Below are positions 2,338 to 62,962 of a stretch of 64,000 nucleotides of DNA, one piece after another. Origin of the DNA: Tigriopus japonicus (Eukaryota; Arthropoda; Copepoda; Harpacticoida; Harpacticidae); the NCBI GenBank assembly GCA_010645155.1, contig JAAGOF010000271.1, positions 529,047 through 593,046 of the forward strand. Direction: 5' to 3'. The position numbers were made by a program, and so were the translations under genes. The notes beneath the pieces are model-generated. The model saw only the letters and a list, made by a program, of their open reading frames with translations, made no database searches and had not been told where the DNA came from. Within the stretch, counting starts at the first letter, position 1. Each line of letters begins with the position of its first letter.

Positions 2338-4074
2338 TCAATTGGGTCGAGTCTTTTGGAAGAAGCTCGCAATGTTCTTCTGCCTTTTGGTGTCGGGTTT
2401 CTCTATTGGTTCAGTAGGTTTCTTTCGCTTGCTTTTGAGGGCAGTGTTCACGTGGACCGTATGAACTTGTGGTTTGGGCTGATCCTTTCGCAGTTCCGCT
2501 TGGAGATCTAAAGCCATGTGGTAATCCAAATGTTCCGGAAGGTCAAACGGAGAGATCAATTTGTCACATTTGGGACACGGTTCCACAACCTTTTCTTTCT
2601 CTGGACTGATATTTTCGGCCTTGAGGGATTGAATTCGCTTCTCAACAGCGGAGCGTAGTCGGGGAGGTAGGAGATCCAGGATGGAGGGATCGTATTGTTC
2701 CAAATTCGGGACCAGCTCTGTGGCCTTCAACTCATCATTGGCAGCGAGGGAGGAAGTTGGTTCGTCGGTTGAAGACTCGGCGGAGGCTTTCGTGAAGAAG
2801 TTGTCAATGCTTTTCAAGGTACTAGACATTGTATCGTCCTCAAATTTGGAGGCCGATATGCTCAGGTTTTTGAGTTTGGGTCGCCACAAAGTCGGATCTT
2901 GAGTGGACTCGTTCAATTTGCCGACGAGACTCATGGCTTGTCGGGTCATTTTTTCGGGGTCATAACTACTCAAAGGCCCAGCTCTTGAAACGTGACCTTT
3001 GCCTTCAATGGTCATGGACACGGTCACGCCTCGAGCAATGCGACCATTGGCTTCTCGATCCCGTTCTAATCGTTCACACACTTCTTCAGCCAAGGATCCA
3101 AACCAGAACTCCACCTTTTCTCGCGTATCCAACATTTTCGGTCCCAAAAAGTTCTTGGAACAACCAATCGATTTGGGTAGATCGCGCTCTTTCACCGGTT
3201 CGTATTCAAGACCACGAGAGATATTGTACAACCATTGAGCGGTCTTTTCTTCAAAATGACTTTTCAGCTCACCCACGGAATGCTTAGCCAAATCTGCCAC
3301 CGTCTCACAACCCAATTGTTCACGAATGGTATCCCCCAATTTGCCACCCAAACCACGTAACTTGGTCAACTTGAGGTTGGCAAAGAGGATCTCAATCTTG
3401 TCATGGGGCAACACGGTTTGCTGGTTGGGCTTGTGTAAACCACACGAGAGCTTACTGAGCATTTTATTGTGCGCCACACCCGCCGAACACCGAAACTGGG
3501 TCTGTTCCCACACGGCTTGCCGCATGGCCTCGACAATCATCCCGCCTACCGCCAACCGAATATTATCACTGTGACCCCGATCATAACTTTCCTTCAACCA
3601 TTCCGTCAAACCCGGTTCTCGGTCCTCCCCACAACCCACGACAAATGTATTGGGCAGATCATGAGCTTCGACCCTGGTCAAAGTCTTCATTTTATCCTCG
3701 ACCAAGGCCGATATATCCAGATAGGCCTCATCAATCGAAGCTCGTTCGACCACGGCTCCAAATTGAAGCAGCACTTGAATGACCTCTTTCCCGGCATCGC
3801 GATACTTCGTCAAATCCGCCTTTTGCCTGACTTCCGGAACGGATACGAGCACAATCTCCGGACATTTGACCTTAGCCTCATCCCCACGCATATTTCGAGT
3901 CACGCCCTTTGCCCTCGCCTCATAATTCACGGCGATAATCCCACCCCCTTTCCAGGAGTTATACTGAACCACGGCTAACGGCTGACCCGCCAAGGTCGGA
4001 TCAGCCCGTGTTTCTACCTGACAGTAGAAACAATCCATGTCTATAAGCACCACCACCCGTTCCGTCATGTTCAC
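2338..4074 (-). CDS. POLH: DNA polymerase eta (Y-family translesion polymerase)
   Basis: Intronless 578-aa ORF. Y-family polymerases copy past UV photoproducts in the nucleus. The catalytic metal sites are visible: LIDMDCFYCQVE near residue 10 and ASIDEAYLDIS near 115. The fingers segment has the N-Y-E-A-R-A-K-G-V-T-R motif that marks the eta subgroup. Thumb and little-finger domains follow to about 400. A UBZ-type ubiquitin-binding finger sits near 500 (CPKC, then HLDYH), and the extreme C-terminus has a PCNA-interacting peptide, QKNIASFF. These are the parts expected for recruitment to ubiquitylated PCNA. It is shorter than human POLH (713 aa), mostly in the linker. Only 71 bp separate its ATG from the small ORF upstream on the same strand. 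Confidence 0.96.
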   Translation of the reverse strand: MNMTERVVVLIDMDCFYCQVETRADPTLAGQPLAVVQYNSWKGGGIIAVNYEARAKGVTRNMRGDEAKVKCPEIVLVSVPEVRQKADLTKYRDAGKEVIQVLLQFGAVVERASIDEAYLDISALVEDKMKTLTRVEAHDLPNTFVVGCGEDREPGLTEWLKESYDRGHSDNIRLAVGGMIVEAMRQAVWEQTQFRCSAGVAHNKMLSKLSCGLHKPNQQTVLPHDKIEILFANLKLTKLRGLGGKLGDTIREQLGCETVADLAKHSVGELKSHFEEKTAQWLYNISRGLEYEPVKERDLPKSIGCSKNFLGPKMLDTREKVEFWFGSLAEEVCERLERDREANGRIARGVTVSMTIEGKGHVSRAGPLSSYDPEKMTRQAMSLVGKLNESTQDPTLWRPKLKNLSISASKFEDDTMSSTLKSIDNFFTKASAESSTDEPTSSLAANDELKATELVPNLEQYDPSILDLLPPRLRSAVEKRIQSLKAENISPEKEKVVEPCPKCDKLISPFDLPEHLDYHMALDLQAELRKDQPKPQVHTVHVNTALKSKRKKPTEPIEKPDTKRQKNIASFFQKTRPN

Positions 4075-4145
4075 TGTTTCCCCAAATGAAAGCGTTTGAA
4101 AGTTGGATATCGATAATGGCGACTAAATATCTCTGTTTAAATAGA

Positions 4146-6364: not shown

Positions 6365-7759
6365 TCACTTGGAGGGATCCACGACACGCCCAGAGAATAG
6401 GGTCATTCCGGTCAAATTGTCCCGAATGGCGAATAAGAACGGGCGATCACAGACAAATCGAGGGGTCATGACCATGGCTCGAGTCATCATAATGGCTGAG
6501 GTCGCGGCAGCGGCCTCCGTGCCCTCTTCGTTGACCTCAATAAATGCCTTTTGCATGACCGCCGACACGTAGAGATCCTTGCGGGCGGATATCCCCGAGA
6601 AATCCGCCTTGCTCTCATCAAACATGTCCTTGATCCCCAAGGCCTTCAAAGGCGCGACCAGATCGTGGGTACTCTCAAATTTGAACTTGGGCAGAGCCAC
6701 ATCGAATTTGTTGGGTTGAGATAGGTTGAGTTTGGTTAAATCAATGGAGGGAAATTTCTCCTCCAAAGCCTGGAATCCTTCGGCCTTTCTGGGGAGGAAC
6801 AGAAGCATGGCCAATCGATCGCCCTTGTAGGGCATCTCTAAGATGGTGGCGTTCAAATCCTTGTCCATGATGGCCCGGTATTTTTCGGATATCTTCATCA
6901 TGGGCACCTTGACAGTCTCGCCGTTGAGGAGCTGAAAGTCTCCCTCACTGGTATGCTTGGCATCAAACTTATTGGCCCAGAGTCCTTTGAAGTAGACGGC
7001 ATTTACCAACACCAATCGGGTCAGATCACTGAGAACCCCGGCGGGAATGAGGTCCTTGATTTTGTCGTGGGTGCGCTCGGACACCCAATCATTGATGGTT
7101 TGACGGGTTTGGGCCTCTTGACCGAAATCGACATTCTCGCTCTCGGCCTTGAAATGAGCCATGGTGGCCTTAAGAAAATCTTCCAACAGCTCATAGTTCT
7201 TGTGAACGTACAATCGATTGGCCGCTTCCATGGTGAAATTCTCATTGGATTTCAACACCTCAAAGAGCTCTTCGAATCCAGCTCGAAGATGTTCTTGATC
7301 TTCCGGCAAGGCCAATCCCGACTGCATCTCGCTGGCAGTCTGACCCGTGGCTCCCATAAAGGCCATGGCCAGCACGGCTGAGGCACTGAAGCCGCTCATG
7401 ACCATATTCTTGTCCTGACCCGCAGCCTGGACCAATAACGGGTACAACTGGGCCTTAAAGGCATCATTGGCTTGAGCCAGAGAGTGAACAGCGGCTTCGT
7501 TCTTCAAAGACATGGCTTGCTTTTGACTTCCGGTTGATGGGGCCGAGATCTGAGGTGAATCTATAAGCAAAGGGATGAGGATCAAACAGAATCCTAAGAG
7601 CACGACAATGGTAAGAATGCAAAGTCCTAGTTTGGGTCGACACGAGCCTGAAGAGACGCACGAGAATCGAGTGGCGGGTATTTCCAACTGCTTCCACTTA
7701 TGAGCCTTCCTTCCCAGAAGAGTGCTAACCCCGGCTACCCCCACATGATTCATCCTCAC
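6365..7759 (-). CDS. serpin, probable trypsin-type protease inhibitor
   Basis: Intronless 464-aa ORF. The N-terminus has a basic stretch and then a strongly hydrophobic segment (about 46-68), so it is either an uncleaved signal anchor or a late signal peptide. A complete serpin fold follows from about 88, with NAVYFKGLWANKF, the shutter and breach segments, and the C-terminal signature F-V-C-D-R-P-F-L-F-A-I. The reactive-centre loop has an inhibitory hinge, E-E-G-T-E-A-A-A-A-T. Counting from hinge Gly as P15 puts Arg at P1 (MMTR|AMVM), which predicts inhibition of trypsin-like proteases. Arthropod serpins of this kind regulate clotting, melanisation and immune cascades. The target is inference. 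Confidence 0.95.
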   Translation of the reverse strand: MRMNHVGVAGVSTLLGRKAHKWKQLEIPATRFSCVSSGSCRPKLGLCILTIVVLLGFCLILIPLLIDSPQISAPSTGSQKQAMSLKNEAAVHSLAQANDAFKAQLYPLLVQAAGQDKNMVMSGFSASAVLAMAFMGATGQTASEMQSGLALPEDQEHLRAGFEELFEVLKSNENFTMEAANRLYVHKNYELLEDFLKATMAHFKAESENVDFGQEAQTRQTINDWVSERTHDKIKDLIPAGVLSDLTRLVLVNAVYFKGLWANKFDAKHTSEGDFQLLNGETVKVPMMKISEKYRAIMDKDLNATILEMPYKGDRLAMLLFLPRKAEGFQALEEKFPSIDLTKLNLSQPNKFDVALPKFKFESTHDLVAPLKALGIKDMFDESKADFSGISARKDLYVSAVMQKAFIEVNEEGTEAAAATSAIMMTRAMVMTPRFVCDRPFLFAIRDNLTGMTLFSGRVVDPSK

Positions 7760-9957
7760 ACTCGCACTGAGCCCTACTTCCTATCCTCCTACGAACGAGT
7801 CATGTACACATGGACACCCATCCACAGCCTCCAGCCAAAGCCAACAAGTCAGGGCTACACCAAGTGCAAGGAAGACTTCAAACATGCACCGTGGTGGTGG
7901 TGGTGGTGGAAGGGCCAAAAATCGATCACAGCGGCCTCAGCCACGAGGTCTGACTCAGGCGGGCGAGATACGGGGGAAGATACGAGAGAGAAAAAGAAGG
8001 CTTTGGAAAGACCAACTTTGTTGACACGAGGATGAATCAAGTCAGGTCTCTGACAGGCATGAATTCCGCCCAAACACTAAGATAGTTCGTTCTCGAAAGG
8101 ACGGAGCGAGGAAAGTCCGGGAAATATTTACAATGTGAGAGTTGGGGCAAAGAAACGAAGGCTCAATTCAATCAACACTGGACTTAAAAAGTCAGGATGC
8201 ACTTGTCACGTAATGGGCCTGGCCTTAACAGTGCTCTTGCGTTTTTACAGTGTGGTAGGCTTATAGTAAGTTTTACACGCACGACAACCTCTGCATGTAC
8301 AGGATGAATTGTCAGGTACGACAAGTGCCAGAAGGAATGAAATCCATGTGTCCGAGCCAACACACACGAACATATGATTGTGCTCGCATCATAGAGTATA
8401 TGCCAAGAGACCTCTTCATGACAAAGAGAACCAAAGACTATCAGACTATTTTACTAGAAAACATCATGATTGGCAACCTAGAAGAGAAAATGAAAAATCT
8501 GAGAGGCTCGAATTGAGATTTCATAAAAACTTGACAATATGGAAGGGGAGAATGAAAAGCTCAGAGCTTTGAATGGTTCGTGTGTATGAATTGATTGCAG
8601 CTGATTCATCGGGCGAGCATGAAGGACCTCACAGGTCCAGGGAGCAAAACATGAGTACTTTTTTCTCAAAGAGGTGGTCCTGCATTTATTAAGGCCGTGT
8701 TGGCCTTCTTGGCTTGCTGAAAACTTACAATGATTTGAGCGATTCAGTCCGATCAAAAATGACGTTGTTAACAGTCGCAACACTAGATTCGGATCAAAAT
8801 TAATCAACCTGACAATTCCAGGTAAGTTCTAATGACTGACCGTCCTCGGTTACTCAGAGAGCCCTAATCGTTTTATTGCTCAGGTAGTAAAACAAGATGT
8901 GCCATCAAACTTGCCTTGTTTGGCAATCGTTCATGAGAAAGCCTTCTTTAAAAATTTGAATCGTTGGGTATATTTCTTATCGGCGCATTTATTGTTACCC
9001 AGATGATCTTTCTTTCCATCGGTGAGGATGCGATGGAAATCCTTTTGAGCCAGGGCTTTGAATGGCATTTTTTAGGGTTCTAGTGGTTGTAGGGCTCATC
9101 AAATATTTTATGGAGTTTTTTGAGTGTTTTGAAAATTGATTCATCTAAGAAAGTCATTGACACCAACTATGAGGATTTTGTTTTTCGCTTTTCGAAATCT
9201 GGAACTCATTTCCTGTCCCAAGGAACCTTCCATTAGTCCAAAGAGGGGTAAGGATTCACAAATAATCACTATTTTAGATCCTTTTTTGAATACTCTATCT
9301 ATCAACTTTTAACATGTCCCAAATCCCATCGCTATTGAACATTTAAACCTATCAAACAATCACAATTTCTTCTCCAAGAAACTTTAGAAACACTTGGGAG
9401 TACTTCATAATTTGGAAACCACAATGTCAGATAGATTCATCAAGATGACAAGAACGAGCATTTGAACCGAGGCCCCCCCTTTCTAGAAAGATTCATTATT
9501 CCAAGGGGATTTTGGCATTCCTCAATGGATAATCCACAGTAGCTCTCTGACCAATTAAAATTGAAGTGTCAAACTGTGCCGACAACCCCTTGTAATGTGT
9601 CTTTACACTTGTTCAGATATCAGGTGAGTCCCAAAAAAGATAAAGTTACTTCAGAAACTTGGGGTTGAAGTCGATTGCAAGTATACCTTAAATACTAAAA
9701 CAAGCCCAAAATAGTTATGACGTGTCGTCAAATTCTTTGCATGTGCTCAAACACGTTAGAAATTTAATTTATGGCGAGTGCTGAAGCATGAATAATGGTG
9801 GTCAAATTCATTTCCCCCGGCATCAACTTACACCCACTCTCTAGAAGCCGTCAATAGTAGTTCAACCTGGATCACCCATGGACAGTTTAACATACAAGTA
9901 AGCACTCTTGACAGGATTAGAGGAGAGACTGGAAGGACCATTCTCACAGTACCAAGA
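7760..9957. other. intergenic, includes a GGT microsatellite
   Basis: Holds the serpin 5' flank and a (GGT)n run at 7891-7909. The remaining 2 kb has only short chance ORFs, and no repeat family or exon was recognised. Confidence 0.5.
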
Positions 9958-10388: not shown

Positions 10389-11424
10389 TTGGCTTAATTA
10401 CCACACTTCACGTCAATCCAATAAGCTCTGTTAAAAAGCCTCACTTGTTCACTTTTTATCATACAACGATACTTTAGTTGTTTCCTCCTTCGTCTTTTGA
10501 CAATGTTTTGGTGACTAATCTCGCTACGATTTCCATAAACGAGCTGACGCCTCGTGAACTGTTTTCAACCCGTTTTTAACTCGGGAAAATCCCGTCCAGA
10601 GTCTCTGAACCTGTTGGTAAATGCTTTGGATAAACCAGTCTTAAATGGCTTAAATAATTGAACTTTTGAAGGCATTCAAAGGTCGCAGTCTGTGCTCAAC
10701 TGTGTATCGATTTATTGGAAGAGTGTAGCGGGCTTAAACCCTCAGTTAAATGCTTGAATGTTTCGCTTCTTGTGCTCTCTACACTCCATGTGGGTAGGCC
10801 TTGATATGTGATAATCAGCCATACGTTGCACGAGAGATTATGGCCTTCTCCAATTACAGTAGGTCAGCCGGTCTTGGTTCATTTTCCGTCGTTGGCTTAG
10901 CTAGACAATAGATTATTTTGAACGGTATCCGAGTGCCTTTTCAGTTGTGAATCTATCTCGAGTTTCTTTTGATTATAATTCGTGCAGTAACATGTATCAT
11001 CAAAACCGAGCATTGCGGATTGCTCTCTCAAGGAGATGGGTGCCTTCAGGTAGGCTATATTTCTTCGGCGTGTGTCTAGAAAAGTTGCACGAGAGAAAGA
11101 GTAAGCTTGTTATATTATTAAGAGGACCTTTCGTCCAACGCCCTTTGCTATTTCGATCTATAAGCCTCACATTTAAGTGTGGAGGTCTGTCAAGGGTATC
11201 AGACTAACACCATCGACTTTATCTTCATTTCCGTCGCCTGTAATCTAGTAAATGACGGATGCGTTTTCAAGGTGCAAGATAAGAACTGAATTACGCACGT
11301 AAAGGAATGTGGTAATAGTGTGTGATCATGTGATTCGCTTTTGTTTTCCAGGCTCACTCGGCATTGGAATAGCTACTTGGTGAGTCCAAGCCCTCCTCGT
11401 TGGGATCGAGCTTCGTCCTTCACC
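10389..11424. other. 5' flank and likely 5' UTR intron of the first LPP gene
   Basis: No coding gene seen. At 11341-11351 a TTTGTTTTCCAG sequence looks like a splice acceptor 74 bp before the LPP start codon, so the gene probably has an upstream non-coding exon. About 11245-11330 resembles 15770-15860, upstream of the second LPP copy (see repeat entry). Confidence 0.5.
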
Positions 11425-12327
11425 ATGGCCTCAACCTACAAGTCTTGGTTATGGTTGATCAATGTTTTGGTAGTGATTGTGGTGGCTTTACCAGTTCTCA
11501 TCTTCAAATTGGTCGGAGTTCCCTACAAACGGGGATTCTTTTGTAACGACGAAACCATTAGCCACCCGTATTTGTCATCCACGATCGATAATCCCATTCT
11601 CTATGGGGTGGGATTCGGCGTTCCCTTCATCTCAATTGTATTTGTGGAGACCTTCATTCGCGGAATCTCGGGACCAAAGTCGGAGGTTGTTTTTGGGAAA
11701 GAGATACCAAGCTACTTAGTATCAATTGTCAAGCTCATCGTAGGTTACCTTTTTGGAACCGCATGCTCTCAGACACTGACCGATGTATGCAAATACTCCA
11801 TCGGACGACTCCGGCCCCATTTCTTCGACGTTTGCCGACCAGATTGGTCTTCCATTGATTGTGGCACGGAAATTCATCCCAACTTTATCACCAACTACAC
11901 GTGCTTGGGCAATCTGGAGCTATTTCCGGAGTATGATGAATCCCAACACAGGATCAAGGACTCTCATTTGAGCTTTTGCTCGGGACATGCGAGTTTTTCG
12001 TTTCAAGCAATGGTTTTTGTCATATTGTACCTGCAAGCTCGATTACTTCGACGGGACCGACCCAATCAGACCATTTTGATCCACGCCCTCCAATTTGCCG
12101 CTTTTCTGTACGCCTTCTTCACGGCACTCTCGAGGATCAGTGATTACAAACATCATCCGGGTGATGTTCTCTTTGGAAGCATTCTGGGAACCGCTGTCCA
12201 AATTGTGAATGTGAATTTCTTCATGAAACTTTTTACGAAAGAGCCAATGGAGCCAATCACGGATGAAGAGCAACAAAAACTGACGAAGGTTCACGGGACG
12301 AGCTACAACTCAAATTTAGGAATGTAG
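11425..12327 (+). CDS. lipid phosphate phosphatase (PAP2/wunen type), copy 1
   Basis: ORF of 300 aa from ATG 11425. The reading frame is open further upstream but has no ATG there and crosses a likely splice acceptor. Six hydrophobic segments fit the integral-membrane PAP2 fold. The three catalytic motifs are complete: C1 K(123)YSIGRLRP, C2 CSGH (186-188), C3 SRISDYKHHPGD (236-247). The conserved PYKRGFFCND start and an N-glycosylation site (NYTC) in the second outer loop are typical of LPP/wunen enzymes. These dephosphorylate phosphatidate, lysophosphatidate or sphingosine-1-phosphate at the cell surface. It is the first of three tandem copies, close to copy 2 and more distant from copy 3. 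Confidence 0.95.
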   Translation: MASTYKSWLWLINVLVVIVVALPVLIFKLVGVPYKRGFFCNDETISHPYLSSTIDNPILYGVGFGVPFISIVFVETFIRGISGPKSEVVFGKEIPSYLVSIVKLIVGYLFGTACSQTLTDVCKYSIGRLRPHFFDVCRPDWSSIDCGTEIHPNFITNYTCLGNLELFPEYDESQHRIKDSHLSFCSGHASFSFQAMVFVILYLQARLLRRDRPNQTILIHALQFAAFLYAFFTALSRISDYKHHPGDVLFGSILGTAVQIVNVNFFMKLFTKEPMEPITDEEQQKLTKVHGTSYNSNLGM

Positions 12328-15769: not shown

Positions 15770-16001
15770 TCGTCTGCGCTCTAAAAGACGGATGCGCTTT
15801 TTGAGTGCGAGATAAACACAGAGTTACGCATCCAATGGAATGTGCAATAAAATGATAATTTTTTATTATTATTGGTCCTTGATCTTTATTGCTGTACAAT
15901 GCAATCAAGTATTTCAATTGTTTTCCTGCTTCACTCTACATTGGAACAGGCGTTTGGTGAGTCCAAGTTCTCTTCGTTCCAACTGAGCCTCATTCTTCGT
16001 C
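15770..16001 (+). repeat. 5' flank duplicated with LPP copy 1
   Basis: About 15785-15850 (GACGGATGCGCTTTT, GAGATAAACACAGAGTTACG, GGAATGTG) aligns with about 11255-11315 (GACGGATGCGTTTTC, GATAAGAACTGAATTACG, GGAATGTG). The promoter or first non-coding exon was therefore copied together with the gene. Confidence 0.65.
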
Positions 16002-16886
16002 ATGGCCTCAACCTACAAATCATGGTTGTGGTTGGTCAATATTGTGGTAATGATTGTAGTGGCTGTGCCAGTCCCAATCTTTAGATTGAACGGTGTTCCT
16101 TACAAACGAGGCTTCTTCTGTAACGACGCAACCATCAGTCACCCGTATGTGGGATCCACCATCAGCAGTCGCGTCCTAATCGGAGTGGGATTTGGTGTTC
16201 CCCTTTGCTTAATTGTGATTGTGGAAACGCTTATTCGCGGAATTTCAAGACCAAAGTCTTTTGGGAAAGAGATACCAAGCTATTTAGTGTCGATGATCAA
16301 GCTCATCGTCGGTTTTCTTTTCGGAGCTGGTTGTGCTCAGACGTTGACCGAAGTTTGCAAGTACACAATCGGTCGATTCCGACCGCATTTCTTTGACGTT
16401 TGCCGACCTGATTGGTCTTCGATTGATTGTGGCACAGATATGCATCCTAAATTCATCACCAACTACACGTGTTTGGGCAATGCAGAGCTCTTTCCCAATG
16501 AAGCCGAATCCGAGGCCAGAATTCGGGATGCTCAATTGAGTTTTTCTTCGGGGCATGCGTGTCTTTCATTTCAAGCCATGATATTTGTCATTTTGTACCT
16601 GCAAGCGCGATTTACACAAAGAGATCGGCCCAGTACGACCATTGTGGTGGCCCTCCTCCAATTTGCCGCATTTGTGTTCGCATTTTACACGTCACTCTCG
16701 AGGATCAGCGATTACAAACATCATCCGGGAGATGTTCTTTTTGGAGGCATCTTGGGAACCATTGTTCAAATAGTGAATGTGAATTTCTTAATGAAACTTT
16801 TCACGAAAGAGCCAATGGTACCAATCACAGATGAAGGACATCAGAAACCTACTAATTTACATGGATCGAGCTACAACTCAAATTAA
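16002..16886 (+). CDS. lipid phosphate phosphatase, copy 2
   Basis: ORF of 294 aa starting with the same MASTYKSWLWL as copy 1. The six membrane segments and all PAP2 motifs are kept: KYTIGRFRP, SSGH, and SRISDYKHHPGD. It is colinear with copy 1 apart from a 4-residue deletion before FGKEIPSYLVS and a short C-terminus. Residues around the C2 serine differ (SSGHACLSF here, CSGHASFSF in copy 1). AATAAA is at about 16925. It is probably an active ecto-phosphatase for lysolipid phosphates; divergence of substrate use is possible but not shown. Confidence 0.95.
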   Translation: MASTYKSWLWLVNIVVMIVVAVPVPIFRLNGVPYKRGFFCNDATISHPYVGSTISSRVLIGVGFGVPLCLIVIVETLIRGISRPKSFGKEIPSYLVSMIKLIVGFLFGAGCAQTLTEVCKYTIGRFRPHFFDVCRPDWSSIDCGTDMHPKFITNYTCLGNAELFPNEAESEARIRDAQLSFSSGHACLSFQAMIFVILYLQARFTQRDRPSTTIVVALLQFAAFVFAFYTSLSRISDYKHHPGDVLFGGILGTIVQIVNVNFLMKLFTKEPMVPITDEGHQKPTNLHGSSYNSN

Positions 16887-17497
16887 AGACTTAGAAGACT
16901 GAATAATAACTTCGTTTTATTTCAATAAATGTTCGATTTTTTTTTCGAAACATGTCTGGTAAATCAGTTACTATTCACAGCGTTCAAAGTCTGATTTGAT
17001 GAAGAGACATGGTTTTTAAGACCTTTGAAAACTTTCATGTTCACATTGCATTGAACCATAAATGGACAAAGATAACATATAACTCATAATGCTCTGCTAT
17101 TTTTTCATTTTTAAAGGTTTTGTGGAAGTTTGACGCGTTTTAGGTCAATTATTGATTTTTGAAAATGTAAACTTTCATTGCCCTCACATCGTACAATTTT
17201 CATATCTTAGAAACTCTTTGGAGCTCCGTTTCCAACTTATGAAGCAGCAATCAAATGTTATTGCATATCCAACATATAGAAATTTCATCACATGCAACAA
17301 GACACCTGAATCACAAATATACTTACATTGTTCCCCATTTTTATCACCTAACCACATGAAAAAGCTAGAGTAGAGTAGAGGCTTTAGTGTACAGTAGATC
17401 AACTTATTGTAGAATTTTCCAAGAGAGGTCAGTACCCGATTGTCCCTCGAGCATCTAGTCTGCCCATTTACTCTTTGATCAAGCACATAAAAGCATC
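16887..17497. other. short intergenic spacer between LPP copies 2 and 3
   Basis: Contains the copy-2 poly(A) signal and, at about 17240-17340, the stretch shared with the flank of copy 1. No extra gene. Confidence 0.5.
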
Positions 17498-18358
17498 ATG
17501 AACTTCCGAGATCCAAGTATCTTTGGTATATGTGGAAATATATTATTGGTCCTACTAGTCTACGGAATATACGAAAGAATCCACCACTCCCACTCAGTTC
17601 AACGCGGGTTCTTCTGCGATGACCAAAGCTTGAAATATCCCTATATCGAAGAATATGTCAGCTGGAGGGTGGTCGAATTATGGGGTTACATTGTTCCAGC
17701 AATCGTTGTCCTCATTGGCGATGCCTTTGTTCCCATCAATCCTCAGAGAACCTTCCTTCAACGTCTTTTAAACGCAGGCAATGTCTATCTAGTGTTTCTA
17801 TTCGGAATGTACTCGACCCAACTCATTTATGAGTGGATCAAGAAGAACGTGGCTCGTGCTCGACCTCATTTTTTTGCCGTTTGTCAACCAATTTACGACG
17901 AAAAGGCCTGTTTCCGAGGCCAATACATCATGGACTTCACTTGTGCTGGGAATCCCAAATTGTTCCCGGATATTGCCGACAGACTTGACAAAATCGAAGA
18001 AGTTCAAGAAAGTTTCGTGTCCGGTCATGCTACTTTCTCGTTTTCGATCGCGACTTTCTTGATCATTTACTTGAATTCGCGTCTCATGTGGAAACGCATC
18101 CCGAGCTCGAACTTGGTCCTCATGTTTGTGCAGATTGGGATCATTTGCACGACATTGTATTTCTCTATTACTCGATTGGTGGACCATCATCATCATGCCT
18201 CCGATATCATCTTTGGAGTTGTGATCGGTACATTGATACAGTTGTATGTGGCCTACATGAGTAACGCCTACTTGGCGCCCAATTATGACGAGCTCTTTGA
18301 AGAGGAACAGTTGCCTTTACTGAGACCACAGCCCCCATCCTATTCATCTCTGCCTTGA
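17498..18358 (+). CDS. lipid phosphate phosphatase, copy 3 (divergent)
   Basis: ORF of 286 aa. PAP2 motifs: KKNVARARP (C1), VSGH (C2), TRLVDHHHHASD (C3, with Thr replacing the usual first Ser). The start is divergent (MNFRDPSIFG), but QRGFFCDDQSLKYPY matches the family. Six hydrophobic segments are visible. The DHHHHASD form of motif 3 is common in wunen-type enzymes, so I expect activity. Its lower similarity says this paralogue is older than the split of copies 1 and 2. No AATAAA was noticed soon after the stop. Confidence 0.93.
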   Translation: MNFRDPSIFGICGNILLVLLVYGIYERIHHSHSVQRGFFCDDQSLKYPYIEEYVSWRVVELWGYIVPAIVVLIGDAFVPINPQRTFLQRLLNAGNVYLVFLFGMYSTQLIYEWIKKNVARARPHFFAVCQPIYDEKACFRGQYIMDFTCAGNPKLFPDIADRLDKIEEVQESFVSGHATFSFSIATFLIIYLNSRLMWKRIPSSNLVLMFVQIGIICTTLYFSITRLVDHHHHASDIIFGVVIGTLIQLYVAYMSNAYLAPNYDELFEEEQLPLLRPQPPSYSSLP

Positions 18359-22405: not shown

Positions 22406-25400
22406 ATGGTACGCGTGATCTCCCAAGAGACTTTCGATGCCGTGGTCAAGGAGAACATGGACGACTTCGGAATGGATCGAACCGAGGCTGTTCAGGAGGC
22501 CAAAGAGCAATTCCAAACCCAGGTGCAAAACTATAATCCTCTTTCATTATAGGTTTCCCTAGAAAAATAGCTTGATTTTCTCTTAACCATCTAATATGAA
22601 ATGATTGCAGGGCGTTAATCTAGACAATATTGTGACGGATTCGGCTGAGAACGATCATCCCATGGTGCAAGCCCTTCATTTCTTAGAATCTCCGGGCGAT
22701 GCTTCACCCGAGGACATTTGTCAGCGTTGTGATATCATTAGCGAAGAGTGTGCCAAGGGATTGGCTGAGAGGGTTTTGGCCACCAAGCACAAGGCCTATG
22801 AGATCCTGGTGAAAACGAGTTTGCATGACGAGATCCTCGTTCAAACGCACGTCATGAAGGCTTTGAAGGAGCTTTTGGATGGCAATCCGGATCCGCTGGA
22901 ACCCGAGGGATTCAAGATGCTCCTCAAGGCCTTGAACGAAACGGATCGAGATTTGGTCCAACGAGCTTTGGGAACCACTTTGAATTGTTGCGTGAGACAC
23001 GAGGGCAATCGACAAAACTTCATCCGAAATGGATTACTGATCCATTTGAACCGTTTGTACGACAGCTATCCCATTGAAGTGGTGCAAATCTGGCAGGCCT
23101 TGGTCCAGGATGATGATGTACGAGTGCCTTTTGGTCAGGCTCACGAACATGCCCGTGAAATTGTCGAAGAACATTCGGCCTTGACCAAGCTCACCCGGAC
23201 CATCGGCGGTAAGTGGCTTCGGATATGTATAAGTTTGCTGTTTTAGGGGGCTGTGGTAAATAAGGCACAGAAAAAATGTTGCAGACCATTTTGTCACAGA
23301 AAAAAGTCACGACAAAATGGTCATTTTAAACAATTTCATCACATGACACCACCAATAGTTCAAAAAGGAAGTGAGCCCTGTACCAAGAAAATCTTAACAA
23401 TCTAATCTCTTAATGGACCTTTTCCCCGAGTGATCGTTTCATCCTAAACTATTTACCCCTGACCCTTTTATCTAAATTTAGGCCTCATTTTCCTTCCAGA
23501 GAATTCAAGTCCCAAGGAATTACCACTCATCTTGTCGTGTTTGAGTAGTCTGTGCGTGAGGAACGAGTATTGTCAAGCTGTGGCCGATGATGAAGGCTTG
23601 AAGGTTCTTTTGGAACTCCTCGTTGATCCGGATCAGACCAAGGAAGTGGTGGCTGAAGTCTTGAAACTCATTAAGACTCTCGCCGGTAACGATAACGTTA
23701 AGCGTGATATTCTCAAACTCGACGGGATTCGGGTCATCATTAATTCCATGAGCAAGTACACGGTAACGGAAATTGTTTTTTTCCCCTTTGACAATCTATA
23801 GATAATCACAACAATTCATATTTTAGTCTGTGAAATTGGTGGCCATGTTTGGGTCTGCCGCAATCACGGCCGTGTCTTTACGAAGCCCAGAAAATGCTAC
23901 GGCAATCATGACCTGTGGAGGTGGCCAACTGTTGACTCAAATCCTCAAAATACATATGAACACGCCCAAGATTCTGGTAAGAGGTCCTAGGAGTTGCTAA
24001 ACTTGTTTTTAGTTAGGGTGGCATAACCTCTTCTTGAGAAGCCCGGGACCCTGTCTTTAGAAAAGGAAACTTTTTATTGCAAATGGCTGATGATTATTGA
24101 AGAAATCTTATGAGTCAGAGAGGGAGTGAGAAGACATTAAACAATCTCCACTGCCAAGCTTAGGGCATTTAAATGCTAAAAAATTATCTTTTTAGTCGCT
24201 TGACACTTTCGGTGTAGGTTTCTTAATTGAAAAAGAATTGAATTGATTTGGAGCATCGTTAAGAAGGAATGAATGGGATCAAAATTCGAAGCTATTCATT
24301 GACATTAATTCTTACAACTTTGACCCTTTTTGGCGTTTTTTTCGAAACATCTTTGGGGTCCCACAGTTTAAGAACCGCCGACATAGAGCAATCGGAGGTA
24401 GAATTCCGAGGATGATTTAAGCACGATTCAGAGGCAAAATAAGGTTAAGGTTTCGTTTTATTTTGTGATCACATATTGGTAGATGGGCTCAGGTTAGGTA
24501 TTTCTATTTACAACATTTTGCTAGAGTTCTTTGGTTAAAAGAGTCACAGTTAGATCAATTAGTCAAGCTAGTCATCGTCCCGCCATTTTTCCGGATTGAA
24601 TATCCATTGTTGGTCGATATGTCCGCTACAGTCTTGAAGTGTAAGCACATCACTGGTGCCCGCAGTTGGATGGCTCAAGCATTTTCCACTTTTGGTATGG
24701 ACCAAAACTCGTCGAGTCCGATCGTAAGACCATTTTTGTCGTTCAATTTCAACACAAGCCTGGAATCGAACGGTGGCATCCACTTCGTGAGCCATTGGAG
24801 AGTCCAAGCAGACACTTTCGTCACCCATGATGAATCCTTTTTCGCTCATTACAATCATTTGGTTTAGTGCGAAATTGGCCGAGCAGTCGCCGAGAACTGC
24901 AGACCCACTGGGTTGGTTACTCCCACCGGATCCTTGGAATGGCTTTTGAAGACATTGACCAGAAGTGCGATGTTGGAAGTAGCCCAGTTCTCGACCCTTT
25001 GTCGGGAAGAAGTGCTGTGGCCAAATCTTTTCGAGATACCAAGAAAAACTTTTGCAGTGCAACTTGTCCCGTAGAGCTTTCCTCTCCGAGACATCTTGGT
25101 CTATGGATGCCTTGGCTGCGAATGGATTGATTTTGAAGAAGAAATCGGCCATCTCGTCCATCCATACTAATGCCACTCGAGCTAGGTTGGTATGAAGTAC
25201 TGCACCCACGCCCCCTTTACGAGGAAAATCGTAAGGACTGGCTTTGCGGAAAATGTGCCCCACATGAGAACAAGGAACGATCTCAACGGAACCGCCGCAC
25301 ATCCAAGTTCGGAACGAGAGCTCCAAGTTCTCTCCTCCCCAGATATCCATTTTGGGATCATACGAACCAAGCTCGTAAAAGTAATCTCGGTCAATGGCAA

Positions 25401-28245
25401 ACAACCCTCCAGCCATAACTGGGGTTTTATATGGTGCCGTTTGATCGATTTTGTAACTCTCGAGAGCGCTCTTACTCATGGTGAACCACCGAAAATGCAT
25501 CTCCCAATTGAAGGCACCCCAATGAAGGGAAAACGCTTTGACGTAACTGAAATTATCGTCACTGATAATGTCAATCACCGGGCAAACCACGGCCGTTCGG
25601 GATTCTTGAATCCTGGCCAAAAGTGGTTCCAACCAACCAGGGGTTGTCTCACAATGAGCATCCAGAAATAGAAGCACCTTGGCCTTGGCCACTTTGGCTC
25701 CCATGAGTCTGGCTTGTATGAGCCCAACTCTGGATCCTGTCCGTACCACTTTTACGGGTACTGATAGCTTTTGAACGTCTTCGTCCAAAGACTTTTGAAG
25801 AAATGTTCTATTGGAGGCATCATCTACGAGAATAATTTCCCGGAGATTCTCTCTGGGCGATCGATTGATGACACTATGAACAGTCCGCATCAAGGTGGAC
25901 CAAGCCTCGTTATGGAACACAATGACGACACTAGTATCCGGCAACCGATTTGTTTCGTATTTTTTCTCTACGCAAATCGACTTCCGAACATCGGGCACAG
26001 ATCTGTTCACGGATATCCGATCGGAGGCCATGATATTGAATTTGTTGATGTGCCAAAGTCTTTTGCTTTGGATATTCTCCGAATCCTTGAGGTAGACTGG
26101 CTCACCGTGCTCTCCAACGCCCTCCACAGGCTTGTACCTGTTGGCGTTGAGTTCATTTTGGGTGAACTTTTGATCCTTGTGCATGGATTCTCCCACATAT
26201 CGACCCACCACTACATGCATACCCTTTTTGTCAATGTATTCCGATTGCTTGGAATCCGATTTCAAGTGTCTGGCCACATCAGATTCGTCCACTAGGTCTT
26301 GGGACAACTTCAGACCTCGGTTGTCTTTGAATAAGAATATCGTTGACGAATCTGATTTGTGGTACTTGAAATATAACACTACGAAGATCGCAAGAATGGA
26401 AGCGATCCAAATGATCCGCTTCCTAGTGTGCCTCATTATCCTCATGTGTCAAGCGTTCTCAAAGTTCCACGGACACTGGAAAGTAGATCGTGCTCAGCCA
26501 TTGGAATCGTATGGTAATCGTCGGAATGGTGCCAGTGGTGAAATGTTGTCCACCACCGACGGCTCAAGCGCATCGCCTGGCTTTGATCACCCGAGTGTGA
26601 AATCCCATGCTTGACTCTAATCAAAACGTCCACCTGGTCTTTTGCTCGATTGTGCTTCACAAATCCCAGAGGGCCACTAATCAAAAAGTACAGCAGACGC
26701 GTTCATGATTCCGATTGTACCTCCACTTCAGTACATGTGCTCAATGTAAGGTCTTTCCAACAGCTGAGGATGTCTGAATCTGATGGAAACAGCTCAGGTT
26801 CATTGTTCATTCTTCCGCGATCATGTTTGTCTCCAGTCTCCCCAGAGGAGATCCCCTCTCATGACATCATTTTTCTCGCTAACACCCAGAGAGGCAATGG
26901 TAGTAAGGTGCTATTCCTGCCTAGCAAGAGCAATGCTCCCTTCCATCCATCCACTTCAGCCTGGCTATGAAACTTGGTTGATGATTGCTATGCTAGGGAG
27001 TGGAGCTTGGTTGTTGGATTGTAGGGCTGAGAATGGACTTGGATGAATCCTACATTGTGTGTGTATTTAGAGAGCATGCATACTTCCGGTTTTTTGAACT
27101 CGTAAGAACCAACTGCGAATGATCTTGAAATGATAAAATCTGCCTGGTATGAAAACACGCTGATCTCTCGTAAGTTGAGCATACAGAGGGTTAGTTAGTC
27201 TTAAATTTTGAGAAGAAATAAAACTGGTTTGTTCCTGACTGTGAACTCGAGAACAATGTGAAGTGTAACAACACCAAGCTTTTTGTCGGAGAGGGGTGGT
27301 TTAATTAGAAAGAAAAGCATATAAATGGAAAAAACTTGTGAATGTTTAAGAGCCATACCATAACGATGAAAAGCATGTATGCTTTGAACCGTTAGGAATG
27401 TTACAAACATATTGCCCAAAACCACGTTTGCCTCCAGGGAATGTTTAAATTTGCCGTTGCAATTATTTGCTTCACGAAGGAAAGACTATTATTTCGACAT
27501 GAAAAGATATTTACAACTTTATCTATCGAGAATTAGAAGCAGACGTATAGATTGTGGGTTGACTGGTGACATAATTTGACCAAAGAAAAAGGGGAACACA
27601 AATCGTCTTCACTTCATTATTACTTCATTATTAAAACGTCAGCGATGGACCAAAATAGTTTGGGATCTGTTTACTAGTGATGGGCCAAGAGTGGTAGCCC
27701 GATTCTACCTAATGATAGACCAACCTGGAGGCGTAGAACTAAACCAACCATGTTTAAAGCAATCATTCAATATTTTAATTTATTTAAAAAAATGACTTAT
27801 TTTGAATTTGAAAAAAATGCGTGATTATTTGCCTGTCAGGTGACCTTTGAACACTCCATCAGTTCTGAATTTACGATTTAACATGAACTCCGTTCATTCC
27901 ATCACTAATATCAAATGCCCAATCCAAACTCAATTGAAATAATGTAACATCATTCGAATATGTACTTTTCCAAAGAATGCTTATGCATTCTAATTTGTAA
28001 TTTCATTCTCAACGTAGAATGTGTCCTCGTTCTAGATCTCCTGTTGCAACGCCATTCGTAATATAGTAAGTCGCTCCCGAGAACTCACTGCAGAGTTTGT
28101 GGAACTGGACATTGAAGATCTGCTCAATGAGATTCGGAGACGTCATCCAACCGCTGAAGATGCCGTTAAAGCCGCACTTCGAGACCTCGATCTTAAAGTG
28201 GATTTGAAAGAAATCTGGACCGGTGGAGCCGTCAAAAATGAGTGA
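22406..28245 (+). CDS. ARMC6: armadillo repeat-containing protein 6, five exons
   Basis: Exons 22406-22522, 22611-23208, 23500-23762, 23827-23976 and 28036-28245, all with GT-AG borders. The phases match and the joined frame encodes 445 aa (human about 476-501). The start MVRVISQETFDAVVKEN and the end AALRDLDLKVDLKEIWTGG fit the ARMC6 family. Armadillo helices are visible throughout (VQRALGTTLNCCVRHEGNRQ, VKLVAMFGSAAITAVSLRS, CCNAIRNIVSRSREL). The molecular role of ARMC6 is poorly known; it is a helical scaffold. Introns 1-3 are 88, 291 and 64 bp, whereas intron 4 is 4059 bp and holds a complete minus-strand GalNAc-transferase gene and two hAT-like elements. Confidence 0.9.
24015..24380. mobile_element. 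diverged hAT-like MITE, family A, in ARMC6 intron 4
   Basis: Shares CTTCTTGAGAAGCCC with the left part of the element at 14664, and its right end CACAGTTTAAGAACCGCCG matches that element's right end. Its left terminus is eroded. Confidence 0.5.
24568..26445 (-). CDS. polypeptide N-acetylgalactosaminyltransferase
   Basis: Intronless 625-aa ORF encoding a Golgi type II membrane enzyme that starts mucin-type O-glycosylation on Ser/Thr. A short basic tail is followed by one membrane anchor (about 11-27) and a stem. The GT-A catalytic domain begins near 170 (TSVVIVFHNEAWSTLMRT). It has the metal-binding D-A-H motif (262-264, FLDAHCE), WGGENLELSFR at about 369 and the CSHVGHIFR segment. A C-terminal ricin-type lectin domain runs from about 485 with a QQWIF repeat near the end. 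All expected catalytic parts are present. The start may be 26445 or the second Met at 26433. A minus-strand AATAAA lies near 24453. The whole gene sits inside ARMC6 intron 4 on the opposite strand. Confidence 0.96.
   Translation of the reverse strand: MRIMRHTRKRIIWIASILAIFVVLYFKYHKSDSSTIFLFKDNRGLKLSQDLVDESDVARHLKSDSKQSEYIDKKGMHVVVGRYVGESMHKDQKFTQNELNANRYKPVEGVGEHGEPVYLKDSENIQSKRLWHINKFNIMASDRISVNRSVPDVRKSICVEKKYETNRLPDTSVVIVFHNEAWSTLMRTVHSVINRSPRENLREIILVDDASNRTFLQKSLDEDVQKLSVPVKVVRTGSRVGLIQARLMGAKVAKAKVLLFLDAHCETTPGWLEPLLARIQESRTAVVCPVIDIISDDNFSYVKAFSLHWGAFNWEMHFRWFTMSKSALESYKIDQTAPYKTPVMAGGLFAIDRDYFYELGSYDPKMDIWGGENLELSFRTWMCGGSVEIVPCSHVGHIFRKASPYDFPRKGGVGAVLHTNLARVALVWMDEMADFFFKINPFAAKASIDQDVSERKALRDKLHCKSFSWYLEKIWPQHFFPTKGRELGYFQHRTSGQCLQKPFQGSGGSNQPSGSAVLGDCSANFALNQMIVMSEKGFIMGDESVCLDSPMAHEVDATVRFQACVEIERQKWSYDRTRRVLVHTKSGKCLSHPTAGTSDVLTLQDCSGHIDQQWIFNPEKWRDDD
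26446..27674. other. ARMC6 intron 4, 5' flank of the GalNAc-transferase
   Basis: No exon for either gene was recognised here. ORFs are short and without domain features. Confidence 0.45.
27675..27907. mobile_element. hAT-like MITE, family B-like ends
   Basis: Starts TAGTGATGGG and ends CCATCACTA, so it has 8-9 bp inverted ends like the elements at 18776 and 42922. The interior is different and AT-rich, and no matching 8 bp flanks were found. It lies in ARMC6 intron 4. Confidence 0.45.
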
Positions 28246-29841: not shown

Positions 29842-32800
29842 TTACTCATATTCACTTTCCATTGCCTCCAAGTAATCCTCAAGGCTATCTCGCTTGCCAA
29901 ATCGAGAAGGGGCTCGCTTTCCGAATCTGCAAGGAGAATTTGATATGTTAGCAGCCCCAACTATTTTGCTCGTGTGTTGAAAAAAGGTTTAGTTTTATGT
30001 ACAATCGCTTTAGAAGATGATGTGGTCTCATTAACTAGCTTTCTATGTAGTGTCGAATTCGTGGGTTTATCTCGATCTAAAAATGAATTTGAAGTTAGAG
30101 GGCAGAATTTAAAGTTGGCGCTAGAGCTCTCAAAGAGTCGGCATGCCCAAAACTTGATGAAGCTAACTATAAGTGCCATTGTGAGGCCGTGCAATCGTTG
30201 TGGACACTCTCATTTGATACTCTACCTCATTGGACCTCGTTTTCGGCCGAAGCGAGAGGGTTTTCGTTTCCCAAATCTTAAATTGAAAACCTCTGGTTAG
30301 CATTTACCAAAGCAGGGGATCTCTTATCCTCAAAGATTTTCAATCATCAAAATTGGGCACTATTCAAAACATCAATAAGAATCCGTTTTTCAATTGGAAG
30401 TAACTACAGAATCTTGAAATTTTTGAACCTTGACAAATTTGGAACAACTGCATTCAAAGATTTTTGATATTCTTTGACAACCTAATGTACTTTGAATAAG
30501 ACTGTTAGTTCTTGTAACTTGTAAGGTTCAAATTTTCATGTCTGGACTTGTGGGGATGTCACAGAATTTTTACAGAAAGAGTGAAATAATTCCAACTATT
30601 GATTGTTGGGAATGTGATGATCAGAAATCCGGTTAAAAGGAAAGCAATAGGTCAGATGTTAATTGCATTCAAAACTATAAAAAGCCATATTCAAGCCGAG
30701 TCTCAGAACAGAAACTGGGGTTGAAAGACAGCTTATGTACTAAGGCCACACTTAAGCATAACTATTTTGTCTACACTTTGTTATACGTACTCTAGCTATT
30801 TGAATTAGTGCAGTTAATATCTCAATTTTCCTCCGAGACCATTGAAAAAAAAACGACATATTTGATGAAAAATAGAGGAAACAATTGAAAAAAGCCAAAG
30901 AAGTTCTTGAGTTGAAAATGGTCTGGAAATTTGTTTTCATTAAAATGGACAAAAGAGGCAAAAACAAAGTTTGTAACCTGTGCTTTTAATCCCAATTAAT
31001 CACCGCTCATAAATATTTGGTCAGCTGTTTTCGGTCCAAAAGTTTTCTGGATTTGTGGATATATTTATAAAAATCAGAAACGTTTACATTGTCTCTTGGG
31101 GCTTTTGGATGTTTTCAGCCTCTAAAATGGATACGTAATCCATTAAAACATGAAAAATTCGTTGAAATAATCAATAAATAGCTTTAGCTTAAAGTTTGAC
31201 AGAGAAATCGGAAATGAAAATAGTTCTACTGAAAATAGTTGAAAAACTTGCAAGCGTTAAACAAAAAAAAATATCCATAAGAAGTAAAACCAACTCCATC
31301 CATCCGTAGATTTTGTAAACTATCCCATCGATTTGGATATTGGCACAGCATCCCTGCTCCGTTGCTTTGCATCTACAGGGTGGCTGATAAGTCTGGGACC
31401 GCAGTTTTGGCATTGTAGATCATTAATTTCTAACAATTTAGCACTTACAATTAGCCACAGCAAACACAAAACTGTTGGTAAAGAGCTATGATAAACATAT
31501 TCACAATAGCAGTCCTTGGCAGATAAAAATGGGCACATTTGTGGAACCATCGACGGACGTGTAACATGCACAATACAACCCATCATTTCAAATGAAAAGA
31601 TCTTCATGAGTTTTTCAAATTTCTCTTCACAATTGTTCAGACAATGGCGTCTGATAATAGTAAACAAATCTGAGACAAAAGGTTTTTGCTTACATCATCA
31701 ACATGGAGTTTGTAAAATCCCTTAAACGACAGGAGTTGAGCTCCACAAAGAGGGAAAATCAGATGAGGAGATTTTGAAAACTACGCAAATGAGCAATTTG
31801 ATTAGAAAGTTTGTCAGAATTACAAGAAATCATTATAGAGATATTAGATACATCTCCAAAAGGGCAAGGAAAGATTGCATATCTTTCCATAAGTGTCAGA
31901 AGCCCAGATGCCACGAGCAGCAAAATATCCATGACATTAAGAGTAGGGTAGTGTAAGGAAATGCAGGTGCCTTCAAGCCCTGATCTTAATCCAATGGATT
32001 TCAATTTGTGATCCATGTCTGAGCCCAGAGCATATAAAAAATTCTCCAAGAATATTGGGGCTCTAAATAATACCCTTGAGATAGTATGGCCATTAATATC
32101 TGAATAGTTTGTGCATGTTACATGTGCATTGGTGGTTCCACAAATGTGTCCATTTTTTATGTGCCAAGTAAGACTATTTTGAAAATGTTTAACACGGCTC
32201 TTTTCCAACAGTTTTGCGTTTTTTGTGACAAATTATAAGTGCTAAATTGTTTGAAATGAACGATTTACATAGCAAAAACTGCGGTCCCAGACACATCAGC
32301 CACCCTGTACGCCATAATTTCACGTATTTTTGTTGCTCATTAAATTAAGAAACAGATTTCCTAAAAATAGGCAAAAACATGCTTTTGGCATTGTTCGAAA
32401 ATACCGTTACTAATTAACACATCCACATTATAAGTACTTAAAGGTAGGGTTCAAAAGTCTTGAAAGAAATAAAAGTGGTAAAAAAGCCAAGGATTTGGTC
32501 AAAGTAGAGTCTTCATTGCATAAACAAATTCTCCTCACTTCAAGAAACCTCACAAAATTTACAACCTTGTAAGAACTGTTATTTAAATGAACCCGATTTG
32601 GCCGAAGGATGACAAGTTTTGGATGTTACCTTGAAGGAGCGCGTTTTCCCCATCTGAGAGGAGCTCGCTTGTCCTCATCGTAGAAACGCTTGCCCCATCG
32701 CAACGGAGAGGCCTCACGTTGATACCTTACATAGTGGGGCTCATCCTCATCCACCACCAACATGTCCATGCCTGTTGATCGCTTACCCCACCTAAATCGG

Positions 32801-33665
32801 TCATGAAAAGGCAAACATAAGTCTAGAATATACTGAAGGCAAAAATGAAAGAACTCCATTCTTCTTTCCTTCCAAAATAATCCCATTGACAAGGAATTTC
32901 GGGTTCTTTGTCCTTTCCCCCTCAGTGTTTCTGTCTTTCAGATTTACTTATGGTCTCATTTCTCTGCATTGCTCCCCAATTTGTGAAGCATCTCTCGGAG
33001 CATCTTCATCTGATATGGATCCAAGGCGAAAGCGTTGAATGGGAAAAATGGTTCTCGTCGTTTTTGCCTGTTGGCAATGCCTTCGAGACATGAGAAGACA
33101 TGAGTTTATGACGGGACATATGAATTTAATGCATCCCCAAAGAACTGGCCAAATGGCGAACGACCTCGACATTTGCAATCGCCCTTGGCTTTTTATGCAC
33201 GAACTAACTATCCATTTATTTATTAACTTGTCCGTGCCCAATATTCTGCTTGTCACCCTGAGGGTGCTTGTAGTTAGATACATCTAATCCACTAACAAGC
33301 CTTGTCATCTCATCTTGGAATGTGGAGTACGTTCTATTTTCGGTAAAGACTTGTTCCAAATACCTTAAAGGTGCGTCCCTGACGGGTCTTTGATCAACCA
33401 GGTTATCAGTGGACCTCTTTCCCCATCGCAAGGGCTCCCTTTTCCCCCATCGCAAGACTTCGGATCCTCGTTTACCCCATCTTAGAGGGCTGGCTCGGGC
33501 AAACCGAGTTTGGGCTGCTTCGGCAGCTGCAGATGCCACAGCCTCTGAATCGGCGTTTTCGGCGTCATTCAAGGCCGCACCGGTGGTGGTTATAAAGATA
33601 CACGCGAACACTACTGTCAAAAGGAACGGACCGGAGTGAAAGGATCGGGGAAGAAGGTGTGGCAT
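29842..33665 (-). CDS. LRWamide/RFamide neuropeptide precursor, four exons
   Basis: Exons 33665-33364, 32791-32630, 30276-30226 and 29926-29842 (600 nt, 199 aa). A signal peptide comes first (PFLLTVVFACIFITTTGA). Cleavage at Lys-Arg and Arg-x-x-Arg sites would release ASPLRW, GSEVLRW, EPLRW, DAPLRW, EASPLRW and APLRW, then APSRF, KPSRF, GPMRF and APSRF, each followed by Gly and basic residues for C-terminal amidation. The last exon ends in an acidic tail (DSLEDYLEAMESEYE). All three introns are phase 2 and split an Arg codon AG|G or AG|A directly before W-G-K-R or F-G-K-R. The layout recalls insect short neuropeptide F precursors, which mix RLRF and RLRW ends, but the peptides lack the RLR core, so the family is uncertain. 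Intron 2 contains a mariner relic. A CTTTCAG just upstream of the ATG suggests a 5' UTR intron. Confidence 0.85.
31374..32312. mobile_element. mariner-like relic with long inverted ends
   Basis: The outer ends are TACAGGGTGGCTGAT... and its inverse, flanked by TA as in Tc1/mariner. On the plus strand near 31970 the transposase motif SSPDLNPMDF is readable, with stops further on. The terminal 230 bp on both sides are inverted copies of the transposase 3' end: the left arm read on the minus strand gives VPQMCPFLS and the right arm gives VPQMCPFFM. The transposase is therefore broken and its 5' part replaced or lost. The element lies in intron 2 of the neuropeptide gene. Confidence 0.8.
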
Positions 33666-60188: not shown

Positions 60189-60542
60189 TTAAGATGCTTT
60201 GGACCTTTTGACCATCTTGGCCTGATAAATCATCTTAGGTATCCAGGAATTTTGACTGGGAGGCAAATCCTTCCACTTCACAAGAAATAGGTCATTTTTT
60301 TCGCGAATGGTTCTTTTAATTTCCAAGGAATCGAAATCTACCATAGTAATTTCGCTGTCGTAAAACCCGCCTTCTACGACATTGTTCTCGTCCCATGCGT
60401 GCAAGATATACATTGGGATGGGCATATTTCGAATGTCAACAATTTGGAACAGGGTAGGATTGCTCTGCGTTTGATAGGTCCTGTGAAAAACGCCTCGTTT
60501 TTTGGCTATTCTAACAACATCCCCCACTTTAAACTTGTGCAT
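60189..60542 (-). pseudogene. Maverick integrase C-terminal fragment with chromodomain
   Basis: 117 codons. FKVGDVVRIAKKRGVFHRTY is the small barrel that follows the catalytic core of retroviral-type integrases. LFLVKWKDLPPSQNSWIPK is a chromodomain core, as in Maverick and chromovirus integrases. The catalytic core should lie upstream, but the sequence there is a LINE, so this is the remnant of a disrupted gene. Confidence 0.8.
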
Positions 60543-62662: not shown

Positions 62663-62962
62663 CCAACCATAGGTCTCAGGTCAACCAGGAAATTCCACTC
62701 ATACCAAGCCTAGGTCTCTGTTAGAGCCACCACGGGCACAACTGTGAAAATTAATGATGGAAAAAATGTCAGTGGATGCCCAAAAAGTACAAATCAATAT
62801 AAGATTGGAAATGATAAAAATACAAAATAAAATAGTAGTGGTTAGTAAGGATAAATATGCAAAGACATAACTACTAAAGCACATAAAAATACAAAAGGAC
62901 AAGAGAAAAGGTCCGATGAGTTGAACAATATGTGGAATGTTGTTTATAGATTTTCAGGTGAA
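62663..62962. other. upstream of LINE ORF2, no gene seen
   Basis: AT-rich linker, probably LINE inter-ORF sequence. Confidence 0.35.

Follow-up and report, generated by a model that had tools for sequence, protein, structure and literature searches.

Introduction

A phase 2 intron that splits the codon of the C-terminal arginine is a hallmark of NPY/NPF genes (PMC6585902, PMC8536682, and likewise PMC7314547). In termite, Bombyx, and Daphnia, NPF1 genes carry an optional exon between two others, which is generally present in insects (PMC4237046). An intron like it is also present in elevenin, a member of another family (PMC6585902), and the arginine-codon intron is therefore not unique to NPF. 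Here we describe a gene of the harpacticoid copepod Tigriopus japonicus, found in a 64,000-nucleotide stretch of contig JAAGOF010000271.1 (positions 529,047 to 593,046; hereafter, the window), that encodes a multicopy RW/RFamide precursor. The design has precedent; what differs is that the Arg-split intron is repeated inside one such precursor. We propose, with a probability of roughly 0.8, that the gene encodes a secreted PLRW/PSRF/PMRFamide precursor with NPF-type arginine introns, of which introns 1 and 2 are old, and that exon 3 is a small cassette, either specific to the lineage or optional.

Three introns split the same arginine codon of the amidation motif

The gene occupies positions 29842-33665 of the minus strand, and its four exons (Table 1) join into a coding sequence of 600 nucleotides (nt), open throughout, for 199 amino acids plus the stop. 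The precursor has ten amidation sites, six RWamide and four RFamide, each followed by Gly and basic residues. The RW copies are, in order, ASPLRW, GSEVLRW, EPLRW, two longer copies ending in DAPLRW and EASPLRW, and APLRW; after them come the RF copies APSRF, KPSRF, GPMRF, and APSRF. By eye, the hydrophobic N terminus encoded by exon 1 resembles a signal peptide, and Pfam gave no match on the precursor. All three introns have GT...AG ends and cut after coding nucleotides 302, 464, and 515, always in phase 2, so that the split Arg codons are AG/G (DAPLR-WGKR), AG/A (APSR-FGKR), and AG/A (GPMR-FGKR), the slash marking the intron.

Joining and translating the exons bears out the original prediction as to the coordinates, the exon lengths, and the phase 2 cuts in the Arg before W/F-G-K-R. 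It had also held that the symmetric exons 2 and 3 (162 and 51 nt) can be skipped with the frame and the amidation sites intact, and in translation exon 2, exon 3, or both can indeed be removed in this way: skipping exon 2 yields the DAPLRF ending that it had foreseen (DAPLRFGKR), and skipping exon 3 preserves APSRF (APSRFGKR).

From its motifs, the precursor would be secreted, cleaved at KR sites, and amidated to give short PLRWamide and PSRF/PMRFamide neuropeptides. Its introns lie where the NPF intron does, after the second base of the codon for the Arg that precedes an aromatic residue. The exon upstream of each junction supplies the peptide body and the exon downstream supplies the terminal W or F together with the cleavage site and the Gly for amidation, so that joining any two exons leaves the amidation motif intact, as their translation shows. 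Exon 3, as a lineage-specific or optional cassette, would add KPSRFamide and GPMRFamide, and its inclusion may vary as it does between the known NPF1a and NPF1b forms.

Intron 2 also harbors, at 31374-32309, an element whose long inverted repeats are imperfect (156 nt at 83% and 49 nt at 88% complementary) and whose ends are CAGGGTGGCTGA-like; it makes up about 40% of the intron and is probably a non-autonomous DNA transposon.

Ten of the 599 internal cut sites of the coding sequence are phase 2 sites in an amidation Arg, and with uniform sites all three introns would fall on them at random with a probability of ~4.7e-6. When introns are limited to AG/R sites, of which there are 22 (five of them amidation Arg), the coincidence probability is 0.0065; the stricter [AC]AG/R pattern has 11 sites, and just two of the three introns qualify. 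These figures are all post hoc, the motif having been picked after being seen, and the comparison with relatives is therefore the real test.

The arginine position recurs among homologs

The homolog set is the union of a protein search (70 proteins at E up to 1) and an alignment search (107 rows at E up to 0.1, scoring only the 7996 candidates that shared most words); it comprises 120 proteins, most of which are fragments. An RWG[KR] site is present in 110; the rest, which include P0017 and P0028 (APMRF precursors), may be non-orthologous. Apart from the Tigriopus and Artemia proteins named below, most of the set is, we infer, copepod. The best homologs are T. californicus TCAL_10997 (81% by BLASTP) and Tk09504 (59%; T. 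kingsejongensis by its label, a name of the MAKER/SNAP kind; MAKER and SNAP, together with RNA-seq, served to annotate the genome of that species, PMC5467011). Both share the orthologous layout of RW copies followed by RF copies but have two RF copies, compared with four in T. japonicus, and no exon 3. The orthologs P0001 and P0003 pass from DAPLR or EAPLR into WGKR and then from APSR into FGKR without exon 3. VKPLRW and APLRW copies also occur in two proteins of Artemia franciscana, which are weak relatives (E 0.09 and 0.15 in the protein search); one of the two went into the search alignment, and its rank in the alignment search is not independent. RF copies are present and come after the RW copies in 12 of 13 inspected precursors, the thirteenth, from Artemia, having no RF copies. 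With its xPLRW copies followed by RF copies, separated by KR, the T. japonicus protein belongs to the PLRWamide precursors, i.e., TCAL_10997 and its relatives.

Many of the homolog sequences appear to be genomic frames read on into an intron. An xP-x-R pattern, into which P0057 and P0065 were written, was used to list 54 boundary-ending fragments; P0025 and P0059 were added by hand, and P0044, P0047, P0060, P0108, and P0120, with unclear ends, were excluded. Thirty-four of the 54 stop at the Arg itself, which fits by construction, and four of these are FPIR sites, not amidation sites; over the whole set, R is the last residue of 39 of the 120 proteins, where composition predicts about 13. The other 20 frames run past the Arg, and 18 fit AG/GT, the codon of their next residue (12 Y, 2 S, 2 W, 1 C, and 1 L) being able to start with T. 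With 38% of codons expected to qualify (T-start-compatible residues or stops, all window frames), P is about 2e-6, and after merging of 80%-identity clusters (15 of 17) it is about 3e-5; both values are rough, since the rows are related, and P0002, among the 20, shares 99% identity with the gene described here. On the acceptor side, an intron-like stretch precedes R-WGKR, by eye, in 16 of 19 rows, the exceptions being P0058, P0064, and P0079. Seventeen pairs of transcript-like and genomic-like proteins were picked by eye, and the clearest diverge at the expected point (P0009/P0106, 100% over 84 amino acids; P0013/P0104, 99% over 98; P0012/P0112, 98% over 88); others are less alike or uninformative. 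P0053 and P0110, both with a longest contig of 1619 nt, resemble exons 1 and 2 of one gene.

Because 18 of the 20 run-past frames fit an AG cut and 34 more fragments stop there, introns 1 and 2 look old and common to many homologs, which are probably copepod. Several observations weigh against this reading. In P0068 (Q) and P0025 (R) the residue after the Arg does not fit AG/GT; by eye, the P0049/P0080 group appears to split the amidation Gly codon instead, P0016 and P0084 have no intron 1, and P0041 has no intron 2. In P0059 the R/WGKR start is at a different copy. Intron number and place vary, yet the Arg position recurs. P0025 additionally has an in-frame stretch of 14 residues between ASPMR and RFGKR, possibly a short retained intron whose donor is GC.

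NPF-like genes of the same genome split the same codon

In the T. japonicus genome (194,852,151 bases in 158 contigs), an NPF query matched only two NPF-like genes (Table 1). Both split the codon of the C-terminal Arg (AG/gtaagg and CG/gtaagt) and have plausible R/FGKR 3' exons; their PF00159 scores, 17.4 and 24.9 bits, are under the curated cut-off of 28.7. The phase 2 cassette of NPF1, 87 nt long and encoding RQRRVGQNMASALEKLSQIKNYYNEAGRP-R, is one of five computed candidates and the one that the annotated protein P0121 (Tk01815, PF00159) contains. NPF2 has a candidate cassette of uncertain length (75-171 nt).

A genome-wide scan for the acceptor pattern YAG/R-[WF]GKR, which needs YAG, AGR, and K-R codons and misses, for example, exon 3 of the precursor gene, returned 13 W-type and 70 F-type sites, against 10 and 60 for backwards-pattern controls. 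Of these 83 sites 82 were read, the other being exon 4 of the precursor gene; apart from this gene, the two NPF-like genes alone were convincing, and further genes with the same intron were accordingly rejected. Uninterrupted HVFLRFG-coding stretches, which by their motif we take to be myosuppressin-like, occur at C23:22448, C23:23154, and C3:4410256, and because these are contiguous, not every RFamide gene in this genome has its Arg split. The two C23 sites are about 700 bases apart and are possibly alternative myosuppressin exons.

These comparisons bear on whether the three introns were instead inserted independently at proto-splice AG/R sites, without a common origin with the NPF intron, which we consider a serious prospect but one somewhat below even odds. 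AG/R sites are few and the coincidence of 0.0065 is not negligible, the introns have no convincing similarity to each other, no likeness to NPF was found outside the C terminus (the NPF query and the precursor query each missed the other), and elevenin, of another family, has a comparable intron (PMC6585902). Independent insertion sits less easily with the presence of introns 1 and 2 in many homologs, with the same codon being split in the same phase in both NPF-like genes, and with the HVFLRFG sites, which indicate that the split is not general to RFamide genes.

Exon 3 is a candidate optional cassette

Exon 3 is missing from the annotated proteins of both congeners, TCAL_10997 and Tk09504, which equal the predicted skip-3 form. 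Its donor, GAGgtagag, is the weakest of the three: 18 of the 179 GT sites of the gene region, itself included, score at least as high, compared with 8 and 3 for the other donors, on a rough generic matrix. Its acceptor is AAG. By content, exon 3 reads as coding, with two further predicted RFamide copies.

A constitutive (or never used) exon 3, with no regulated splicing and with symmetric phases as a passive by-product of inherited introns, is an alternative that we hold to be credible, if a little less so than not. The splicing is predicted from genome sequence, inclusion or skipping of exon 3 is plausible, and the congeners may simply lack the exon. In addition, the 120 homologs include no exon-2-skipped join in an RW precursor: PLRFG[KR] occurs in two, both of them APMRF precursors without RW copies, and most of the set are fragments unable to show such a join. 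What speaks for an optional cassette is the annotated form of the congeners, the weak donor and AAG acceptor, and the NPF of the same genus with an extra exon of the same type. Skipping as originally predicted is thus matched by congener annotation for exon 3 and has no counterpart among the homologs for exon 2. P0026 was considered as an exon-skip isoform and set aside, as its gap joins points other than exon ends and an assembly collapse over a repeat is likelier.

Growth of the gene by exon duplication, also suggested originally, found no nucleotide support. Comparison of the introns with each other gave no similarity beyond chance-level matches, and the exons are similar at the motif level only; a recent exon duplication was rejected on these grounds, and any exon duplication must therefore be old. 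The simplest explanation of the recurring position would be that a unit with an Arg-split intron at either end was duplicated in tandem. By eye, the number of copies changes within exons, not by exon count, and fragments of the exon 1 type have between one and three RW copies. Further cassettes inside the introns were also discounted: the minus-strand scan of the window for an acceptor plus motif found the three real acceptors and two look-alikes, which sit inside exons 1 and 2, and the plus strand gave one unrelated site at 18815.

The precursor differs from other amidated peptide families

Drosophila short neuropeptide F (sNPF) mixes RF and RW forms. That the gene is the copepod ortholog of sNPF, its motif reduced to xPLRW from xPxLRLRF/W, is unlikely: the SP...LR motif and the mixing of RF and RW are in common, and no convincing contiguous RLRFG[KR]R precursor appeared in the genome (30 pattern matches versus 52 for the backwards control, six loci inspected), but the pattern misses intron-split motifs, the sNPF protein query of the genome was empty and without a positive control, the crustacean RLRFamide ending (PMC4655400, PMC3749230) is absent from all ten copies, none of which has an xPxRLRFamide C terminus, and PMC7314547 describes phase-one introns for PrRP, with limited resemblance in gene structure to the sNPF genes of protostomes.

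The copies do not fit other families either. NPF/NPY is defined by a PF00159 domain and RxRF/Yamide, and the copies here are short PLRW, PSRF, or PMRF; copepod FMRFamide-like peptides (FaLPs) are defined by F[LIV]RFamide and PF01581, and the precursor has no Pfam match. The T. californicus FaLPs given in PMC12035899 are other peptides, and a D-FLRFG pattern for a FaLP control gene gave one unconvincing match in the genome. Arthropod luqin/RYamide members end in RYamide (PMC4062910), and the copies here end in RW or RF. The term LRWamide appears in 11 papers of the literature searched, PMC2569041 among them, which going by their titles deal with cnidarians, a brachiopod, or peptides of insects and crabs including sNPF (PMC5577450). 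APLRWamide, PLRWamide, APMRFamide, and APSRFamide are not mentioned in the open-licence literature searched, where we found no name for this RW/RFamide precursor family; the Christie 2014 Tigriopus peptidome may describe the precursor, and we do not claim novelty for the peptide family itself.

Table 1. Exons and introns of the precursor gene, the NPF-like genes, and other features of the window
Feature	Position	Strand	Length	Description
Exon 1	33364-33665	-	302 nt	ATG; three RWamide copies and start of the fourth (DAPLR/); supported by ortholog P0001
Intron 1	32792-33363	-	572 nt	Phase 2, AG/G of Arg101; similar boundary in homolog fragments
Exon 2	32630-32791	-	162 nt	Symmetric 2-2: WGKR ... 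EASPLRWGKR, APLRWGKR, APSR/
Intron 2	30277-32629	-	2353 nt	Phase 2, AG/A of Arg155; contains inverted-repeat element
Exon 3	30226-30276	-	51 nt	Symmetric 2-2: FGKR-KPSRFGRKR-GPMR/
Intron 3	29927-30225	-	299 nt	Phase 2, AG/A of Arg172
Exon 4	29842-29926	-	85 nt	TAA: FGKR-APSRFGKR-DSLEDYLEAMESEYE-stop
Two NPF-like genes (L028, L029)	C11, about 1269396-1271678 and 1901983-1903744			Arg-split introns; candidate optional exons of the same phase
PAP2-superfamily open frames	11326-12327, 15987-16886, 17459-18358	+		Three neighbors, probable tandem array
Y-family DNA polymerase	2338-4122	-		Single frame; eta/Rev1-type HhH
Serpin	6365-7780	-		Single frame
Glycosyltransferase	24568-26448	-		Single frame; GT2 plus ricin-lectin
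Long open frame	60506-62680	-		Resembles LINE-type reverse transcriptase (by eye)

Discussion

The gene extends the intron hallmark of NPY/NPF to a multicopy family of RW/RFamides, of which the open-licence literature searched gave no description. It offers a testable route from a one-peptide gene to a modular multicopy gene, and it carries a warning that an Arg-splitting intron alone may not identify NPF orthologs. A link of the PLRWamide gene to NPF is possible. The fuller scenario, in which the gene descends from an NPF-type gene or a common ancestor, the single Arg intron multiplied as the precursor gained copies, and copepods use splicing at it to switch the W/F ending and copy number, we regard as improbable but worth stating.

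The modular skipping logic that was originally put forward holds in translation for this gene but is not new, being known from NPF (PMC6585902, PMC8536682, PMC4237046) and from the NPF-like genes of this genome. Related designs occur in beetles. The periviscerokinin (Capa) genes have peptide exons flanked by same-phase introns, with duplication and alternative splicing, but their introns are phase 1, their peptides are different, and the introns are not said to be in the amidation Arg codon (PMC6585902). The sNPF genes of Anoplophora and Leptinotarsa have an extra exon with added paracopies, alternatively spliced in Anoplophora (PMC6585902); they and the T. japonicus gene share short amidated peptides and an added paracopy exon, but the RLRFamide motif is absent from the latter. 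NPF/NPY genes have the phase 2 intron in the C-terminal Arg codon that occurs three times here, the optional exon of NPF1 between two others has a candidate equivalent in this gene, and the R-aromatic-GKR ending is shared. Whereas NPF has one longer peptide per precursor and a PF00159 domain, the T. japonicus precursor has ten short copies, several such introns, W as well as F endings, and no Pfam match.
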